Source of the DNA: a virus
Length of the DNA: 23,326 bases
Virus record (IMG/VR): IMGVR_UViG_3300025732_000272
Location: 1-23,326 of that record
Reading direction: 5' to 3' (one strand)
Part shown: in pieces, positions 11,388 to 23,039 of the stretch
Numbering within the stretch: position 1 is the first letter of the stretch
Layout of the letters: each line of letters begins with the position of its first letter
Notes under the pieces: model-generated
Told to the model about the DNA's origin: nothing
Database searches by the model: none
What the model saw: the letters and a program-made list of their open reading frames with translations, nothing else
Position numbers and translations under genes: made by a program

Positions 11388-11885
11388 ATGAAAACTTGCT
11401 TCAGATGTAAGGAAGCGAAACCTACAACCTTATTTTTCAAACATGCTCAAACTAATGATGGTTTTCACAGTTGGTGCAAAATTTGTTGCAAAGAAGGAAA
11501 TGATCGCTCTAGAGTCAAATTAAATTCAACGATTGAAGGCAGGGCTAAAGTTTTTTTGTTCAACGCTAAAAGAGCTGCGCTAAAACGTAACCAAGAATTT
11601 TCATTAACCGTAGAAGATATTACAAAGTGTTGGATGGAACAGCGCTTCACCTGTGCATATACCGGTAGAAAAATGACGCTTGAATCGGGAAAGTTAAACA
11701 CCGTTTCAATTGAGCGTATTGACAGCAGTATTGGTTACACGCCAGAAAATACAGTTTTGGTTTGCCAAGCAATCAATAGAATGAAATCAGATTTTATGTT
11801 TCATGATTTTTATGAATTATGCAGAGACGTTGTTGAGTTTCTTGGAGATGAAAACCTTAATCTTGAAGTTGGAGCTTACAAATGA
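11388..11885 (+). CDS. HNH-type endonuclease with N-terminal zinc ribbon
   Basis: 165 residues, starting right after the preceding stop. The N-terminus holds a zinc-ribbon pattern, CFRC (4-7) and C30-x2-C33. The C-terminal half has CAYTG (89-93), SIERID (107-112), GYTPEN (116-121) and INRMKSDF (129-136). This is the pattern of phage HNH proteins related to recombination endonuclease VII, in which S-I-D/E-R-I-D and GY..N...C..IN.MK form the beta-beta-alpha metal site. It may be a free-standing homing-type nuclease or act in packaging or recombination. Its 3' end overlaps the next gene as ATGA. The DNA is visibly more AT-rich than the lysozyme gene, consistent with recent acquisition. Confidence 0.85.
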   Translation: MKTCFRCKEAKPTTLFFKHAQTNDGFHSWCKICCKEGNDRSRVKLNSTIEGRAKVFLFNAKRAALKRNQEFSLTVEDITKCWMEQRFTCAYTGRKMTLESGKLNTVSIERIDSSIGYTPENTVLVCQAINRMKSDFMFHDFYELCRDVVEFLGDENLNLEVGAYK

Positions 11886-12470: not shown

Positions 12471-12682
12471 TCGCGTTCTCCTTGTAGGATTTTCCAGGCT
12501 TCTTCCCTGACGGCATTCTCTACGGCATAGCCAAAAGCATCAGGGTCAAGCAACGCATGGATGAACATCTCTCTGACTTTGAGTTTGTGATCAGTTCTTG
12601 CCAGCATGGCTCGTAACTCTCTGGTAAGCGCATAAAGCGTTTCCATCTTGGCCTGCATCTCTTCCCTGGTCATCTCACTCAT
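12467..12682 (-). CDS. Hypothetical helical protein (71 aa)
   Basis: ATG 12682 overlaps the upstream gene's stop (ATGA) and its own stop overlaps the Hjc-like start. The 71-residue product is almost entirely helical and charged: MSEMTREEMQAKMETLYALT, with RELRAMLARTDHKLKVREMF later, and an acidic end AWKILQGERD. No Cys or catalytic pattern is visible and I recognise no family. It is co-translated with the nuclease and the winged-helix protein. Confidence 0.75.
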   Translation of the reverse strand: MSEMTREEMQAKMETLYALTRELRAMLARTDHKLKVREMFIHALLDPDAFGYAVENAVREEAWKILQGERD

Positions 12683-12999
12683 GAAGCACCTACACTAAAC
12701 GGATTGTTGAAGAACTTGGGTTCTATCGTAATACGCGTCTTAGCGAACTTGATAGGGTTCTTAACGGGTTCTTTCTCTACTGGCTCCCAACTCGAAAAGG
12801 TATAAAACCGTTCCGTTACGCAATTGATCTTCTCTGTTCGCTTCTTGATGTGACCCTTGTAAAGCAATGACCGAATGACGTATTTGACTGTTGGACTGCC
12901 AAGCCTGGTTTGCAGTTGGATGTCCTTGAATGTAGCTTCAGTCTTTCGTTTGGAAAGATACTTAAGTACCTTCATGTGGGATTCTGTCAGTTTTGTCAC
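12679..12999 (-). CDS. Winged-helix DNA-binding protein
   Basis: 106 residues, GTG start in a GTGA overlap. Residues 3-60 read as a winged helix-turn-helix: LTESHMKVLKYLSKRKTEAT (first helix), FKDIQLQTRLGSPTVKYVIR (helix-turn-recognition helix), SLLYKGHIKKRTE (wing). This is the layout of MarR/ArsR-like small regulators. The C-terminal 45 residues are polar (EPVEKEPVKNPIKF...) and probably extended. A transcription regulator of the phage programme is the natural inference, but its target is not evident from the sequence. Confidence 0.65.
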   Translation of the reverse strand: MTKLTESHMKVLKYLSKRKTEATFKDIQLQTRLGSPTVKYVIRSLLYKGHIKKRTEKINCVTERFYTFSSWEPVEKEPVKNPIKFAKTRITIEPKFFNNPFSVGAS

Positions 13000-13334
13000 T
13001 GCTGCCCCCTCGCTCGGATGGCGGCGGCGCAGTCTTTCGCTCTTGAAAATTCAGCATAAAAACTGTCATCTTCAGCTCCTAAGATTTCACACGCCTTCGC
13101 ACACACCTCACGCTCGTTTCTTATGCGCTCTTCAATCTGCCAATCTAACTCTCTCAACAGGTCTTTGATCGTGTCGCCATGTCCTGTTGCGTAGCCGCGC
13201 TGGATCATCCATGCGGCCAGCTTCTCACGCTCGGCAGCAGCAACAAGGGTGGCAAACTCTGCGAGTGAGTCTGCGGTAAAAGCATAAATGCCGTACTCGT
13301 TCTTTGCCATGCGGATAATGTCTTCTTTAGTCAT
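12996..13334 (-). CDS. Phage hypothetical protein of the 'MTxEDIIRMA' type
   Basis: The open frame extends to 13364, but ATG 13334 forms an ATGA overlap with the upstream gene and starts the conserved part (112 residues). MTKEDIIRMAKNEYGIYAF, followed by LAEFATLVAAAEREKLA, matches a widespread but uncharacterised phage protein type found in many beta- and gamma-proteobacterial phages. It ends with a second helix rich in Arg, Asp and Ala (NEREVCAKACEILG, AKDCAAAIRARGQQ), containing three of its Cys residues. Function unknown. Confidence 0.75.
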   Translation of the reverse strand: MTKEDIIRMAKNEYGIYAFTADSLAEFATLVAAAEREKLAAWMIQRGYATGHGDTIKDLLRELDWQIEERIRNEREVCAKACEILGAEDDSFYAEFSRAKDCAAAIRARGQQ

Positions 13335-13540
13335 GCCATATCTTCCCGCAATGCAGCGTCCCATACTTTGTCATTAGCGCCTTTAATGACCTCTGTGGTG
13401 GTGAATCGATGCAAGCAAGCAACACAGCGTCGCCTGCGTGTCACCCAAGAGTTCGCAGGCTTCTTACCTCCATACCTGCGAGTCTCTAGGATGATCGTAT
13501 CGTTGTGCTCACCACGTTCGGCGCACTTAGGGCATAACAT
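13331..13540 (-). CDS. NrdR-like zinc-ribbon protein
   Basis: 69 residues; ATG 13540 overlaps the previous stop (TGATG). It has CPKC at 3-6, then ILETRRYGGKKPANSWVTRR, then RRCVACLHRFTTTE (37-50), giving Cys3, Cys6, Cys39 and Cys42. This is the zinc ribbon of the ribonucleotide reductase repressor NrdR (MxCPxC...R..RRRRCxxCxxRFTTxE). The ATP-cone domain that follows in NrdR is absent, and the protein stops about 20 residues after the ribbon. It may bind DNA through the ribbon alone, for example at host NrdR-type boxes. No ribonucleotide reductase gene is in the window. Confidence 0.8.
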   Translation of the reverse strand: MLCPKCAERGEHNDTIILETRRYGGKKPANSWVTRRRRCVACLHRFTTTEVIKGANDKVWDAALREDMA

Positions 13541-18066: not shown

Positions 18067-18573
18067 ATGGCTAGCAAAGCAGAAAAACGAAGGCGGGATT
18101 TGATAAAAATTCATGGTCATAAATACCGCCGTCATTTTTTAGCTGAGGGTTACTTTTGTTTTTATTGCGGGGATCGTGCTCAAGGTTTAGATCATGTTCC
18201 TCCAGTTTCAATGATTGAAGATTTGCCTTATGAGAAAAGGAAAAAATGGGGCATACCTTGCGTTTTGCTTCCATCTTGTAATGACTGCAACTTCGCTTTA
18301 AGCAATAGAGGTCTATTCAATGTTTTTGATCGCCTCCTTTTTTTAGAGTCGTACTTCGACGCAAAACTGCAAAAGCAAACTAGTTTATGGAGCGAATCAG
18401 AGATTAAAGAGTTAGGCCATAACCTCCAAGGGTACGTTCGCGCAAAACAAGAGGGCTTGCAGTGGCTCGCGAGCAAAATTAGGGCTATACAGGTTAGGCA
18501 AATAAAGCCTGATACGTTTCCTAAGTTCATTGAAGAAGACTCGGACTCCAATTATGTAGAGAAAAGCCCGTAA
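18067..18573 (+). CDS. HNH-family nuclease, inserted antisense in the leftward block
   Basis: 168 residues, ATG 18067. The metal site is visible: CFYCG (31-35), LDHVPP (41-46) and CNDCNFALSNRGL (71-83), i.e. paired Cys knuckles around a D-H-V-P-P core. This matches a class of phage HNH proteins (C-x2-C ... DHVPP ... C-x2-CN...L). The rest is a helical tail ending in an acidic DSDSN segment. It is the only confident rightward gene between 12.2 and 20.2 kb and has AT-rich codon use and no good ribosome site. All three suggest a mobile, free-standing homing-type endonuclease. An alternative is a resident nuclease under its own promoter. Confidence 0.8.
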   Translation: MASKAEKRRRDLIKIHGHKYRRHFLAEGYFCFYCGDRAQGLDHVPPVSMIEDLPYEKRKKWGIPCVLLPSCNDCNFALSNRGLFNVFDRLLFLESYFDAKLQKQTSLWSESEIKELGHNLQGYVRAKQEGLQWLASKIRAIQVRQIKPDTFPKFIEEDSDSNYVEKSP

Positions 18574-19094: not shown

Positions 19095-19940
19095 TCAGGC
19101 AGCTAGCGGCATTTCCTCAGCTTGCTCTGCTACTAAGTAATCCATTGCTGCCTGAGCCTTGCTCGCAGCTTTGATGATCGCGTTTTTATCTTGCTTTAAG
19201 ACTTTGAGCCATGATTCGATATAGCTTGCATGTTGCAACTGACCATCAACGCCAGTTTTCATGCAGAGCATGGCTGCACCTAGTTCTGCGATTAGTTCCT
19301 CGAATGCGTAGGCTTCCGAACCGAACCGGTTCATCAATTGGCGATCAAGCCTTGTTTTTGCGCCAGTAGCATGGATGCACTCATGCAGCAATGTTGCGTG
19401 ATAGTCAGCAAGTGATCGAAAGCTAGCAATTGCAGGCATACCGATTACATCTTTAGAAGCCTGATAGAACGCTCCGCTAGCTTGCTGCACTCCACCATCA
19501 AGAGCAAGCCTATCAACTACAGCCTGCACTCTAGAATCAATAGAACCCTGCAGCTTGCCTGAGCCTTTCGAGAATGTTGCACCTTCAATATCGTCAGCAT
19601 TGAACACAAAGTAATGCTTGAGCATTGGAATAGTCGAATCAACGTCAGCGCCGTTAGCATCCTTTTTAGTGATGCTAAGTTGTTTCCAGAAGATGATAGG
19701 CACACCCTTTGAGCCTTTCTTAACGCTCAGGCCTGCATCACTTGCTTGCTTGAACGTGAGCCAAGCATTGGATCGTCCCATGCCCATCATGCCGAGCCAA
19801 AGCTGATTAAGACCACGATAGACCGTACCAGAGACCGGATTGTATGACTCGCAATCCTCATGCCAAGGCTTAACCCAAGGCGCAGTACCCTGCTCTAGTT
19901 CTGCAATGATGCGGTCAGTGATGATTTGTGCAATATCCAT
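19095..19940 (-). CDS. ArdC-like protein: ssDNA-binding N-terminus plus zincin metallopeptidase domain
   Basis: The frame opens at a TTG (19955), but ATG 19940 follows the leader ribosome site and gives 281 residues. The N-terminal domain (residues 1-118) matches ArdC/DUF1738: IITDRIIAELEQGTAPWVKP, NPVSGTVYRGLNQLWLG, AWLTFKQA, KKGSKGVPIIFWK. The C-terminal domain has LLHECIHATG with the HExxH zinc site at 186-190, and FEELIAELGAAML (213-225) with the downstream Glu of the zincin fold. ArdC-type proteins from plasmids and phages protect incoming DNA from restriction; these domains also occur in polyvalent proteins injected with DNA. It sits near the start of the leftward block, as expected for an early counter-defence gene. 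Confidence 0.88.
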   Translation of the reverse strand: MDIAQIITDRIIAELEQGTAPWVKPWHEDCESYNPVSGTVYRGLNQLWLGMMGMGRSNAWLTFKQASDAGLSVKKGSKGVPIIFWKQLSITKKDANGADVDSTIPMLKHYFVFNADDIEGATFSKGSGKLQGSIDSRVQAVVDRLALDGGVQQASGAFYQASKDVIGMPAIASFRSLADYHATLLHECIHATGAKTRLDRQLMNRFGSEAYAFEELIAELGAAMLCMKTGVDGQLQHASYIESWLKVLKQDKNAIIKAASKAQAAMDYLVAEQAEEMPLAA

Positions 19941-19963
19941 GATGTTTATCCCCAAAGGTTAAG
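19938..19963 (-). promoter_or_regulatory. Repeated leader motif, copy 3
   Basis: Leftward: CTTAACC, TTT, GGGGATAAACATC, ATG of the ArdC-like gene. Spacing from CTTAACC to ATG is the same as in copy 2. It fixes the ArdC start at 19940 rather than the longer open frame. Confidence 0.7.
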
Positions 19964-19982
19964 AGGGGCGATCAGCCCCTTT
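19962..19982. other. GC-rich intergenic hairpin before the ArdC leader
   Basis: AGGGGC (19964-19969) and GCCCCT (19975-19980) form a 6-bp stem with loop GATCA, extendable by two pairs on the + strand. On the leftward strand it is followed by CTTAACC rather than T's, so it is not a classical terminator. Its overlap with the leader motif suggests a processing or regulatory hairpin. Confidence 0.5.
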
Positions 19983-19990
19983 CTGGTTAG

Positions 19991-20227
19991 TTAGGCGATT
20001 GCTTGGTTAGCTTTTAGCCATTCGATCGACCTTTCAGTGCAGTCCATTTCTGTATAGCAAGAATGAGCCTTAGTAATCATGTGCGGTTCCGTTGCTACAT
20101 TGTCGATACCGTAGGACTCGCCTAAGCATGTGCGAGCTACTTCGGCATTGATAGCAGTGGCGGCTACTGAATACTTGCTGTATGAAGTTTTAACGATGAA
20201 CCAGTATTGCTGCATTTTGATTTTCAT
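19991..20227 (-). CDS. First leftward gene, hypothetical protein (78 aa)
   Basis: ATG 20227 is preferred over the GTG at 20236 because GGAG lies 8 nt upstream of it (part of the GGAG ends the GTG). The product MKIKMQQYWFIVKTSYSKYS is followed by VAATAINAEVARTCLGESYG and a final helix TERSIEWLKANQAIA. The first 35 residues look like a beta-alpha unit (YWFIVKTS...SVAATAINAEVA). No family recognised. It is the first gene downstream of the divergent region, so probably among the first expressed. Its upstream sequence has a partial leader motif (AACC...GGAG). Confidence 0.7.
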   Translation of the reverse strand: MKIKMQQYWFIVKTSYSKYSVAATAINAEVARTCLGESYGIDNVATEPHMITKAHSCYTEMDCTERSIEWLKANQAIA

Positions 20228-20259
20228 TTGATACACTCCATGAGGTTATAAAAACTATA

Positions 20260-20288
20260 CATATAATCACTACAATTAATATTGTCTA
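20260..20288 (-). promoter_or_regulatory. Candidate leftward early promoter
   Basis: Leftward reading gives TAGACA (complement of 20283-20288, 5 of 6 consensus), a 17-nt AT-rich spacer and TATATG (complement of 20260-20265, 4 of 6). A start near 20253 leaves a ~25-nt leader before ATG 20227. Position at the head of the leftward block supports it. Confidence 0.45.
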
Positions 20289-20389
20289 AGCTTTGCTATG
20301 TGTGTTCATAGAACTTTAGTATTAGATACACACAAACACACACCGATGCTTAAGATAGGCTCGATAAGTACTCTTAAAATCTTAAAAAC

Positions 20390-20429
20390 TATATATAGGT
20401 CTATAGGTGTAGTTCTATAGATATATATA
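20390..20429. repeat. Long AT-rich imperfect palindrome
   Basis: TATATATA-gg-TCTATAG (20390-20406), an 8-nt loop GTGTAGTT, then CTATAGA-TATATATA (20415-20429). The arms pair over 15 bp with one 2-nt bulge. It could be an operator, a DNA-unwinding or cruciform element of an origin, or a transcript hairpin. Confidence 0.8.
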
Positions 20430-20760
20430 AGGGACTAACTATCTTCGATGAGCTAGGGACATCAATGGATTGTTATCTATACGCTCCCTGCATCAATCGA
20501 TAAGGGGCGCAAGGGGCGGTAAGCGTTCACCTTTCCCCTGCGCAGTGCATGAGTAGGCATGTGCTCAAGGTGCAACATGGGCAGGCATTGGCCACAATCA
20601 AGCACACAGATCAAGCTTTGTTGTGGTATCGAATGGGACGGGGCTTGTGAATTTGAGTGCACCACTACTCTTCCCGCCCCAAGGAAAATTCACTTTTCTT
20701 GCCTACCTTAAATATCTATTTGTGTATGATGAGTACATCGACAACATGGAGATGTACGAG

Positions 20761-20973
20761 ATGTTTACGTTAGAGAGAGGTTTAGATATACCGGAGAGGA
20801 AGACAGGGCCTAAATACCCTTATGATCAGTTAGAACTAGGAGATAGTTTCTACCTTGAAGGAGGTGACCTATCGAAGTTATGTAATGCTAACTATAGAGA
20901 GTGGAGAAGAACAGGAAAGAAGTACACGGCAAGGAAGGTAGAGAATGGTGTAAGGGTGTGGAGGATTGAGTGA
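20761..20973 (+). CDS. DUF7303-like small phage protein (70 aa)
   Basis: The frame is open far upstream (to 20623), but that part is non-coding in character. ATG 20761 has GGAG 9 nt upstream and begins the conserved portion MFTLERGLDIPERKTGPKYP, then YDQLELGDSFYL. The C-terminus is KYTARKVENGVRVWRIE. The pattern 'kYPfd.LevGDSF.....A..Y.......yt.RKvenGvRVWRi' matches a small phage family I recall as DUF7303. ATG 20746 or 20752 are alternative starts. The stop overlaps the next GTG start (GTGA). Possibly a DNA-binding regulator; not established. Confidence 0.75.
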   Translation: MFTLERGLDIPERKTGPKYPYDQLELGDSFYLEGGDLSKLCNANYREWRRTGKKYTARKVENGVRVWRIE

Positions 20974-21191
20974 AGCATGATGATGCGGTGAGATGGATTA
21001 CGAAGTATGCAGAAGGTGATCCAAGCTATCCGTATCTGGCGATGAAGTGGTATGAGGAAGAGAGAAAGAAACGTCCTTTGAGTGCTGATGAGCAAAAGAC
21101 GGTGTTGTGGTTAAAGGAAAACTATGGAATTGAAGCCAGATTGCAGAAACTGCCACTACAGCCAAGAAATTGGACTAAAGGAAAGCCATGA
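20970..21191 (+). CDS. Hypothetical protein upstream of terminase (73 aa)
   Basis: GTG start in a GTGA overlap. The product is MKHDDAVRWITKYAEGDPSY, PYLAMKWYEEERKKRPLSAD, EQKTVLWLKENYGIEARLQK and a Lys/Pro/Trp tail. It is helical, with paired aromatic residues. A position just before the large terminase gene might suggest a small terminase role, but it lacks a clear helix-turn-helix and is shorter than usual, so I leave it unassigned. Confidence 0.7.
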   Translation: MKHDDAVRWITKYAEGDPSYPYLAMKWYEEERKKRPLSADEQKTVLWLKENYGIEARLQKLPLQPRNWTKGKP

Positions 21192-21282
21192 CGGTAAGGA
21201 AGTGGTCTTGATCTGCATTCGAGATGGCTTGCTGGCAGAAAAGGTTTGCACCTATTACGAATATGAACCAGGCATTGAATGA
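21124..21282 (+). CDS. Small four-Cys putative zinc protein (52 aa)
   Basis: ATG 21124 has AAGGA 6 nt upstream and its TGA overlaps the terminase ATG (ATGA). The 52-residue product MELKPDCRNCHYSQEIGLKE, SHDGKEVVLICIRDGLLAEK, VCTYYEYEPGIE has Cys7, Cys10, Cys31 and Cys42, a zinc-ribbon-like set. It overlaps the preceding gene by 68 nt in another frame. Without it the 87 nt before the terminase would be empty. Both the ribosome site and the ATGA coupling support it. The function is unknown; it may pair with the terminase. Confidence 0.7.
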   Translation: MELKPDCRNCHYSQEIGLKESHDGKEVVLICIRDGLLAEKVCTYYEYEPGIE

Positions 21283-23039
21283 AGTTTGACCTTAATCACT
21301 TCTACAAGTTCTGCAAGGAACTAAAGGTAGAGACCAAAGAGCTAGGCATTCAACGCTTAGGTAATCGTTTGCTTGGAAGCCAGACCTATGTGATGGAAGA
21401 GATCGCCAAGGGTCTGAACAATGACATTCACTTCTTTGTGATTCTCAAGGGAAGACAGCTTGGGATTACAACCATATCGCTTGCCTTAGACCTTTACTGG
21501 CATTTTAAGAACCCTGGGTTTCAGGGAACGCTCACGACTGATACTGAAGAGAACCGAGACCAGTTCAGAACCACCCTTGCCATGTACATGGATGGATTGC
21601 CACCGGAGTACAAGATTCCTTTGATGACGCATAACAGGAATCAGATGGTCTTAAAGAACCGATCAAGGCTCTTCTACCAGGTAGCTGGCTTGCGAGCCAA
21701 GGGTTCTTTAGGGCGTGGTAAAGGTATTACCTATCTGCATGGCACAGAAACATCGTCTTGGGGTGATGAAGAAGGACTGGCTTCTTTGCTAGCTTCTTTG
21801 GCAGAGAAGAATCCCAATAGGCTTTACCTTTTCGAAAGCACAGCCCGTGGCTTCAACATGTGGCATGACATGTGGGCAGTGGCTAAACGTGCAAGAACGC
21901 AGAAAGCTATTTTCTGTGGTTGGTGGCGCAATGAACTCTACAGTGCTGATGCCAAATCTGACGTCTACAAGGTGTACTGGGATGGCAAGCTAAGTCCTGA
22001 AGAGAAAGAATGGACAAGAGAGATTAAGAAGCTCTACCAGGTAGAGATCAATTCAAGGCAGATTGCCTGGTGGCGGTGGAAGATGAATGAGGGGATTAAA
22101 GACGAAGCCCTCATGTATCAGGAGTTTCCACCGACTGAAGACTATGCCTTCATCATGACGGGTTCGAGTTTCTTCTCACATGCCCGCTGCACTGATCAAG
22201 CCAAGGTTGCCAAGCAGTTGTTACCTCGGTTCTACCGCTTCTCAATGGGACAATACTTTGAAGACACTGAGTTAATTAACTCAACAGAGCGCATGGCAAC
22301 GCTTAAAGTATGGGAGGAGCCGATTGAAAACGCCTACTACGTCATCGGTGCTGATCCAGCATATGGAAGTAGCGACTGGGCTGATCGTTTCTGCATCCAG
22401 ATCTACCGCTGCTATGCAGATGGACTTGATCAAGTTGCGGAATTCGCTACCTCTGAACTCAACACCTACCAGTTTGCCTGGGTGGTTTGCTACCTGGCAG
22501 GGGCTTATAAGAACTCCACACTAAACCTGGAAGTGAATGGGCCAGGCCAAGCCGTGATCAATGAGATGCGCAACCTTAAACGCCAGGCTCAGACGATGGA
22601 GCCGCGCAAAGCCAGAGGCTTAATGGATGTCTTATCGCACATGCAGCATTACCTGTGGCGGCGTAATGACTCACTAGGCGGTGTCTCAAACTCGCTGGGT
22701 TACCTGACCACGCATTCATCCAAAGAACGGATGCTGAATTACTTCAAGGACTATTTCGAGCGCGGGATGATGAATGTCTACTCGATGGATTTACTTGAAG
22801 AGATGAAATCCGTGGTGCGTGACCAGGGTTCTATTGCTGCTTATGGGCGCAACAAAGATGATCGTGTCATTGCCACAGCGCTTGCTTGCGTAGCTTTTGC
22901 TGAGCAACTCATGCCAAGGCTCTTGCAAATGCGTATGACGCGTGATCGCAAAGAAGAAGCCATAACGCCCGTGCAAGTGCCGGTCGTGGATAAGCAGATC
23001 AACAACTACTTAAAAGCTATTGGCGTTGGGCCTCAGTAA
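21279..23039 (+). CDS. terL: Terminase large subunit (packaging ATPase/nuclease)
   Basis: 586 residues; ATG 21279 in an ATGA overlap. ATPase domain: Walker A-type KGRQLGITT (57-65), preceded by hydrophobic FFVIL; a Walker B-like strand ITYLHGTE with Glu157; and coupling motif LFESTARG (184-191). Nuclease domain (RNase H-like): VIGADPAYG with Asp359, LEVNG with Glu418, and NKDDRVIATALA with Asp527/Asp528. It pumps DNA into the procapsid and cuts the concatemer. The usual Walker B aspartate before the catalytic Glu is replaced by Thr (GTE instead of hDE), as in some phage terminases with S/T-E. The small subunit is not identified in the window. Confidence 0.95.
   Translation: MKFDLNHFYKFCKELKVETKELGIQRLGNRLLGSQTYVMEEIAKGLNNDIHFFVILKGRQLGITTISLALDLYWHFKNPGFQGTLTTDTEENRDQFRTTLAMYMDGLPPEYKIPLMTHNRNQMVLKNRSRLFYQVAGLRAKGSLGRGKGITYLHGTETSSWGDEEGLASLLASLAEKNPNRLYLFESTARGFNMWHDMWAVAKRARTQKAIFCGWWRNELYSADAKSDVYKVYWDGKLSPEEKEWTREIKKLYQVEINSRQIAWWRWKMNEGIKDEALMYQEFPPTEDYAFIMTGSSFFSHARCTDQAKVAKQLLPRFYRFSMGQYFEDTELINSTERMATLKVWEEPIENAYYVIGADPAYGSSDWADRFCIQIYRCYADGLDQVAEFATSELNTYQFAWVVCYLAGAYKNSTLNLEVNGPGQAVINEMRNLKRQAQTMEPRKARGLMDVLSHMQHYLWRRNDSLGGVSNSLGYLTTHSSKERMLNYFKDYFERGMMNVYSMDLLEEMKSVVRDQGSIAAYGRNKDDRVIATALACVAFAEQLMPRLLQMRMTRDRKEEAITPVQVPVVDKQINNYLKAIGVGPQ

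Follow-up and report, generated by a model that had tools for sequence, protein, structure and literature searches.

A conserved composite site between the early and late gene arms of an uncultured phage family: a candidate packaging-initiation signal

When the genes of a phage run away from each other on both sides of a gene-free interval, an obvious question arises: does such an interval hold promoters only, or also an origin of replication or a signal for DNA packaging? The 23,326-base virus record considered here (hereafter the window, that is, the whole stretch of DNA that was analyzed) contains an interval of this kind at 20228-20760, which the original prediction described as an AT-rich divergent control region and a possible replication origin. 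The interval forms the switch between early and late genes in an uncultured phage; the more specific question is what the composite 64-bp site that lies in it does.

The phage family and the divergent interval

The following features define the genomic setting and the left part of the interval.

20228-20470, no strand assigned: AT-rich left half; presumably the promoter/operator region of the leftward early genes; GC 0.313; strongly mosaic, partly conserved among relatives
20392-20429, no strand assigned: imperfect AT palindrome with arms at 20392-20406 and 20415-20429; 13 of 15 pairs
20545-20566, no strand assigned: conserved block GTGCATGAGTAGGCATGTGCTC, seen in alignments; single match in the window
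20761-20973, plus strand: first late gene, encoding a 70-aa protein; similar to DUF7303, but below cut-off; conserved together with the composite site
21279-23039, plus strand: terL, the terminase large subunit; phrog_2, 1.5e-11

The rightward arm of the window includes terL, the genes after it and a lysozyme, and the leftward arm encodes a RecE-like exonuclease (phrog_434), a protein with a weak SSB match, an HTH_39 protein and an ArdC-type anti-restriction protein. A TerL search in IMG/VR yielded 115 matching stretches, 80 of which were kept. The only two close genomes in GenBank are MW202753 (35.6 kb) and MW202825 (34.2 kb), both annotated as circular, with terminases that are 73.7% and 72.7% identical, respectively, to that of the window. 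Another relative (G004) has a 127-base terminal repeat and makes a complete circle of 37,312 bases. The family is one of uncultured tailed phages, whose complete or near-complete records measure about 34-41 kb. The loci that carry the site stem from many separate metagenome records, and no cultured relative was found; MAG contigs, the source of the only matches in the search for a host (5 of 103 candidate stretches), point to no firm host. In the complete relatives, a leftward arm (RecE-like, SSB, ArdC) and a rightward arm (terminase, portal, capsid, lysis) diverge from the interval and converge about 25-28 kb beyond it, so that its description as a divergent control region holds. The two ends of one 37,502-base contig (L235 and L255) carry copies of the divergent region that are near-identical, not identical, which is what one would expect of a circular or permuted genome whose join varies among strains.

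Several other genes are of interest in their own right. The 3' end of the late arm of the window has an Endonuclease VII/HNH-like gene (11388-11885; phrog_1035, 2.9e-30); a small NrdR-like zinc-ribbon protein is encoded at 13331-13540 (27.8 bits, well under the TIGR00244 cut-off of 124.65); and the large late protein encoded at 1-2697 has about ten PTVT repeats in a run near its C-terminus. In relatives, the stretch from the 70-aa gene to terL holds exchangeable DNA-modification genes, for a cytosine methyltransferase or a Mom-like protein, opposite an ArdC gene (L023, 4595-5293; L039, 4950-5699; L028, 2902-3339; L032, 3806-4276); those scanned matched C5 cytosine methyltransferase PF00145 in L023 and Mom-like PF25680 and phrog_1384 in L028.

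How, then, do the features first noticed in the interval fare upon comparison with shuffled sequences and with relatives? That 533 nt are free of genes was confirmed: there is no credible gene between the starts of ORF 19991-20227 (minus strand) and ORF 20761-20973 (plus strand), and an extra base that relatives carry between GTAC and the start codon makes it unlikely that the latter ORF begins upstream of 20761. The separation of all leftward from all rightward transcription holds for most genes but not for ORF 18067-18573, a plus-strand frame with weak endonuclease-like matches inside the leftward arm. Likewise, the interval is AT-rich in its left half only, at 20228-20470, where the GC content of 0.313 is matched by only 0.4% of windows of that size, but not at 20471-20760, where it is 0.486, above the window mean of 0.472. 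The AT palindrome is present, with a score equaled in 1 of 300 dinucleotide shuffles of the interval, but is not kept in relatives: in 25 aligned relatives, the best 15-bp arm score ranges from 9 to 14, the shuffle mean being 10.3 for the whole interval. The 8-nt direct repeats (TCTTAAAA, AAGGGGCG, TCGATAAG, CAACATGG) and the 8-bp inverted repeat GTGAATTT/AAATTCAC with its 31-nt loop (20647-20654/20686-20693) are also there; the interval has 10 repeated 8-mers, a number reached by 2 of 300 shuffles, and three inverted repeats of 8 bp whose loops do not exceed 31 nt, a number reached by 8 of 300. The good leftward promoter, by contrast with these confirmed features, was not recovered, as a strict sigma-70 scan detected no promoter-like site in the interval on either strand, and a single site, at 20148, in the region 19900-21300, where 3.5 are expected by chance.

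When the relatives are aligned, the left half of the interval is mosaic and the right half contains sharp blocks. The palindrome and the short repeats that first drew attention are not the conserved features. As a separate observation on the conserved block GTGCATGAGTAGGCATGTGCTC, its core is reverse-complemented in place (CATGCCTACTCATCAC) in several relatives, e.g. L096, L098, L100 and L101, and has a variant form in L003; these inversions resemble hairpin-loop inversion.

A rigid, single-copy composite site

The right half of the interval contains the following features.

20629-20692, plus strand: composite 64-bp conserved site; PWM score 73.6, next best site -29.3
20632-20637, plus strand: Box 1, AATGGG, at a fixed distance from the core
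20652-20666, plus strand: Box 2, TTTGAGTGCACCACT, with a GYGC palindrome; family consensus close to TTTGCGTGCCCCATT (information profile of 32 representatives; alignment)
20671-20688, plus strand: Box 3 (core), TTCCCGCCCCAAGGAAAA; exact CCCGCCCCAA in 48 of 58 protein-fetched loci
20725-20730, plus strand: -10-like hexamer TATGAT, 42 nt beyond the core; presumed to belong to a rightward late promoter
20733-20757, plus strand: inverted repeat GTACATC-N11-GATGTAC immediately ahead of the first late gene; unchanged in all 40 aligned rows, without covariation

A reality check on the conservation is important because the motif-fetched loci and the rows of alignment A3 were chosen for the core, so that core invariance there is uninformative; the presence of the core was therefore counted on the 58 protein-fetched loci that include the 70-aa gene together with over 700 nt of upstream sequence, and conservation was also assessed on flanks without the core. 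Beyond the exact copies, variant or displaced copies were found in eight more of these loci, and the core is absent only from L120 and L121, both without a terminase hit. The non-exact cores comprise a variant in L019 and variants upstream of an inserted endonuclease gene in L036 and L117; the core is degenerate in L069, L070, L071, L073 and L075. The alignments did not include rows that carry an endonuclease insert or are short on the left; in one alignment, this removed 14 of the 59 distinct upstream sequences. The distance from Box 1 to the core is 41 nt in 94 of 112 loci, 40 nt in seven and 42 nt in two, with Box 1 not found in nine; this count includes motif-fetched loci, which were chosen for the core, not for Box 1.

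A position weight matrix (PWM) of 64 columns was built from 32 representatives at 80% identity, one (L228, a tandem copy) being dropped before building. Each of the eight genomes or fragments scanned contains one strong hit, the weakest being that in MW202825. The full matrix gives 73.6 for the window and 80.1, 79.3, 83.3, 73.4 and 76.7 for G001 to G005, and the next scores in those genomes belong to one-base shifts or to unrelated sites at -14 or lower. In held-out relatives, the site was found at the expected place with scores of 17.9 (MW202753), 16.2 (MW202825), 15.2 (L218) and 24.0 (L220), and L069, L070 and L073-L076, also held out, score 26-33, the best of 20 shuffles reaching -24. Among five MAG contigs, no hit was obtained in L217, which starts inside the 70-aa gene, or in L219 and L221. 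A second matrix was built from 21 distant representatives only. With the core included, it scores the window site at 58.0 and the next best site at -26.1; in a flanks-only version, which omits the core used for selection, the window site scores 23.0, the next site 0.7 and the best of 50 shuffles 13.0. The flanks-only model finds the MW202753 site at 19.1 but does not find the site in MW202825, which is detected by the full matrix alone. Together, the full-matrix and flanks-only results indicate an old, rigid site that occurs once per genome and has a direction. In the divergent region of the genomes scanned, the composite site is oriented toward terL, at a distance that varies from about 0.6 kb upstream in the window to 2.5 kb in L077, and in several lineages the core is tandemly duplicated.

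Two further observations concern the architecture of the site. A dyad symmetry (AATGGGACGGGG versus CCCCGCCCCA, with GTGCAC near the centre) is visible in near relatives, but a scan of the consensus gave no standout centre (0.110, the next being 0.107), and the symmetry was discarded. Copies of the core only, close to TTCCCCGCCCCAARAAAAATCAGTTTTT, occur at a late-gene boundary in L284 (at 8603), L269, L275 and L283, and in MW202753 (at 16622), some of them located inside the first codons of a gene, and not always in the same frame. They do not qualify as composite sites, since the flanks are missing and the PWM scores are between -35 and -6 in L269, L275, L283 and L284.

Neither the 1401-nt surroundings nor the 101-nt site region had a match in 50,697 phage records, and the core string CCCCGCCCCAAGG did not occur in the literature searched. 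The site appears to be a phage cis site beside the terminase that is absent from the records searched, and the kind of site proposed below is a candidate. Whatever that kind, a single-copy signal conserved down to 73% terminase identity provides a handle to find and orient phage fragments.

A replication origin or a leader RNA?

If the interval were a replication origin, the AT-rich half could serve as the unwinding element and the composite site as the initiator-binding site. The AT-richness of the left half is compatible with such a role, as is the presence of one unique conserved site per genome, and the suggested check by cumulative GC skew at first seems to agree: the minimum falls in or near the region in all three complete relatives, at position 5 in G004, 650 in MW202753 and 1968 in MW202825, that is, near but not always inside the divergent region. 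The maximum, however, is not opposite the minimum but at the convergent gene junction (28,568 in G004, 25,822 in MW202753 and 27,547 in MW202825), so the skew follows gene orientation. In general, skew sums the effects of replication and transcription and does not separate them, as stated in PMC3269016. A skew caused by replication should make the fourfold-degenerate sites of rightward genes change beyond the antipode; no difference was seen in any of the three complete genomes, the values on the two sides being 0.006 and -0.036 in G004, -0.291 and -0.336 in MW202753, and 0.046 and 0.039 in MW202825, with standard errors of 0.03-0.06. Being confounded with gene orientation, GC skew was rejected as evidence of an origin.

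The search for the other parts of an origin gave little. The DnaA box TTWTNCACA has no match in the whole window, where 2.9 are expected; the repeats in the interval that might be taken for initiator boxes or iterons are short and mostly two-copy; the AT-rich half varies as a mosaic between relatives, which do not keep its palindrome. Nor did the nine early-arm ORFs scanned, the ORFs of G004 or the annotations of the two GenBank relatives reveal a clear initiator, helicase, primase or polymerase; ORF 12679-12999 has a weak match to the O-like initiator family phrog_678 (E 0.0039), below several regulator matches. We consider an origin at this interval, with the composite site as the initiator-binding site, possible but unlikely. 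The more general point, which corrects a common reading, is that a divergent phage promoter region with a skew minimum is not necessarily an origin.

Could the conserved right half act as RNA instead, namely, as a leader of the late operon with an antitermination, processing or translational element? The 5' region is long, its plus strand folds with a z of -2.0, and an invariant 7-bp inverted repeat lies ahead of the start codon. The reverse strand, however, folds as well (z -2.4), and the RNAalifold consensus of 40 sequences consists almost only of invariant pairs, with a covariation term of -0.07. A helix after the core fails the controls, and RNAalifold predicts none there: this A/T hairpin is convincing by eye, but 29 of 500 shuffles reach its percentage paired and 38 of 500 its covariation score. 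Rfam and ARAGORN searches gave no hit. Since pairing in and around the composite site comes without covariation, the site behaves as a DNA recognition site rather than as RNA; a candidate DNA site is also the simpler reading, and a leader RNA seems very improbable.

A presumed late promoter, possible packaging and known systems

As a DNA site at the start of the rightward late unit, the composite site might be an upstream activator site, to which a phage regulator, e.g. the winged-helix protein encoded at 12679 or 13800, would bind and recruit the host RNA polymerase to the -10-like hexamer downstream. The hexamers themselves speak for this: in 24 lineages, the best ones downstream of the core are above shuffles (p 0.003, i.e. 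0.3% of 300 shuffle sets reach them), and TATACT stands 12 nt after the core, ahead of the inserted gene, in L020, L048 and L056. Tandem duplication of the core would also suit an activator site, as would the clustering of the hexamers near 12, 18-22, 30-34, 42-43 and 54 nt from the core, with a weak helical phasing (p 0.03). On the other side, the range of these distances, from 12 to 54 nt, contrasts with the spacing within the 64 bp, which is fixed to one base. Furthermore, visual inspection shows no evident -10 at the core-only copies in late operons, and no regulator has been linked to the composite site. We regard an activator site as possible, although on balance doubtful.

The reading that we prefer, with a probability of about 0.4, is that the composite site is a packaging-initiation (pac-like) site beside a late promoter. 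It fits best because of the place of the site before the terminase unit, its single copy, its direction and its 64-bp geometry, which is intolerant of indels. As can be envisaged from the gene layout, the AT-rich left half would drive the leftward early genes, and the right half would comprise the composite site, then the presumed late promoter, then the operon that starts with the 70-aa gene and terL. The terminase complex would bind the replicated concatemer at the composite site and make the first cut there, and heads would be filled from the site in the direction of terL. The composite site would accordingly predict where packaging (or late transcription) begins.

If this is a packaging site, a pac-like or terminally redundant mode is more likely than cos. 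Viromes of the Manatee Spring were made from DNase-treated particles, according to PMC8388828, a paper that we infer to be linked to MW202753 and MW202825; virion-derived genomes of these two relatives were assembled as circles, which argues for pac/headful-like or terminally redundant packaging rather than a simple cos site. A cos site was also sought through contig ends. Among 98 left ends counted, 30 of them within 1 kb, those of three contigs (L006, L246 and L300) lie 0-3 bases before the core, and a fourth contig, L008, which was noticed separately, starts inside it. The ends scatter, however, from about 20028 to 21265, and the two ends of one contig (L235 and L255) differ at the base before TCCCCGCC, so that contig starts at the core are explained by assembly branching and strain variation and were not counted as proof of a cos site.

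Some observations count against packaging. We saw no genome terminus, and in MW202825 the flanks by themselves miss the site. The -10-like hexamers just downstream would fit an activator site equally well, and core-only copies occur elsewhere in L269, L275, L283 and L284. The family searches made did not turn up a small terminase subunit. An activator site comes close behind a packaging site as an explanation, and both may hold. In a rather improbable combination of the two, one rigid signal would be read by a small protein and both start late transcription and mark the start of packaging; the reader would perhaps be the 70-aa product of the next gene, in a phage family perhaps devoid of a recognizable small terminase subunit. 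For the 70-aa protein, the structure model has a pLDDT of 83, and the fold search gave no significant match, the best PDB match (E 0.28) being uninformative on DNA binding.

Comparison with known systems is instructive here. Around cos of HK97-like phages, endonuclease genes are described in PMC10448857, and an endonuclease-like gene is inserted just after the core in L020, L036, L048, L056 and L117; the three scanned (L036, L048 and L056) match phrog_2340 at 8e-28 to 5e-26. The likeness to the HK97-type terminase/HNH region, as presented in PMC10448857, lies in endonuclease genes just upstream of the terminase unit; unlike in that arrangement, the phrog_2340 gene is an occasional insertion here and is absent at that place in the window, and so is not a required part of the module. 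The nearest annotated genomes, those of the Manatee Spring phages ctz7E20 (MW202753) and ctah5458 (MW202825), share the two-arm layout of the window and a TerL that is 73-74% identical, and the PWM finds the site at the matching place, although it is more diverged there than in the window (17.9 and 16.2 versus 73.6) and is not annotated.

Activator-dependent late promoters are represented by those of P2 (Ogr) and Mu (C), which resemble the present arrangement in that a site precedes a -10 that lacks a clear -35; the differences are the rigid 64-bp geometry, the variable distance to the -10 and the unassigned regulator here. The packaging sites of tailed phages are represented by cos of lambda and pac of SPP1 and P22. 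For the site described here, we saw neither a cut nor termini, identified no small terminase and obtained no INPHARED match, but like them it is a single-copy, rigid, oriented signal of multiple boxes, close upstream of the terminase genes and with endonuclease genes nearby.
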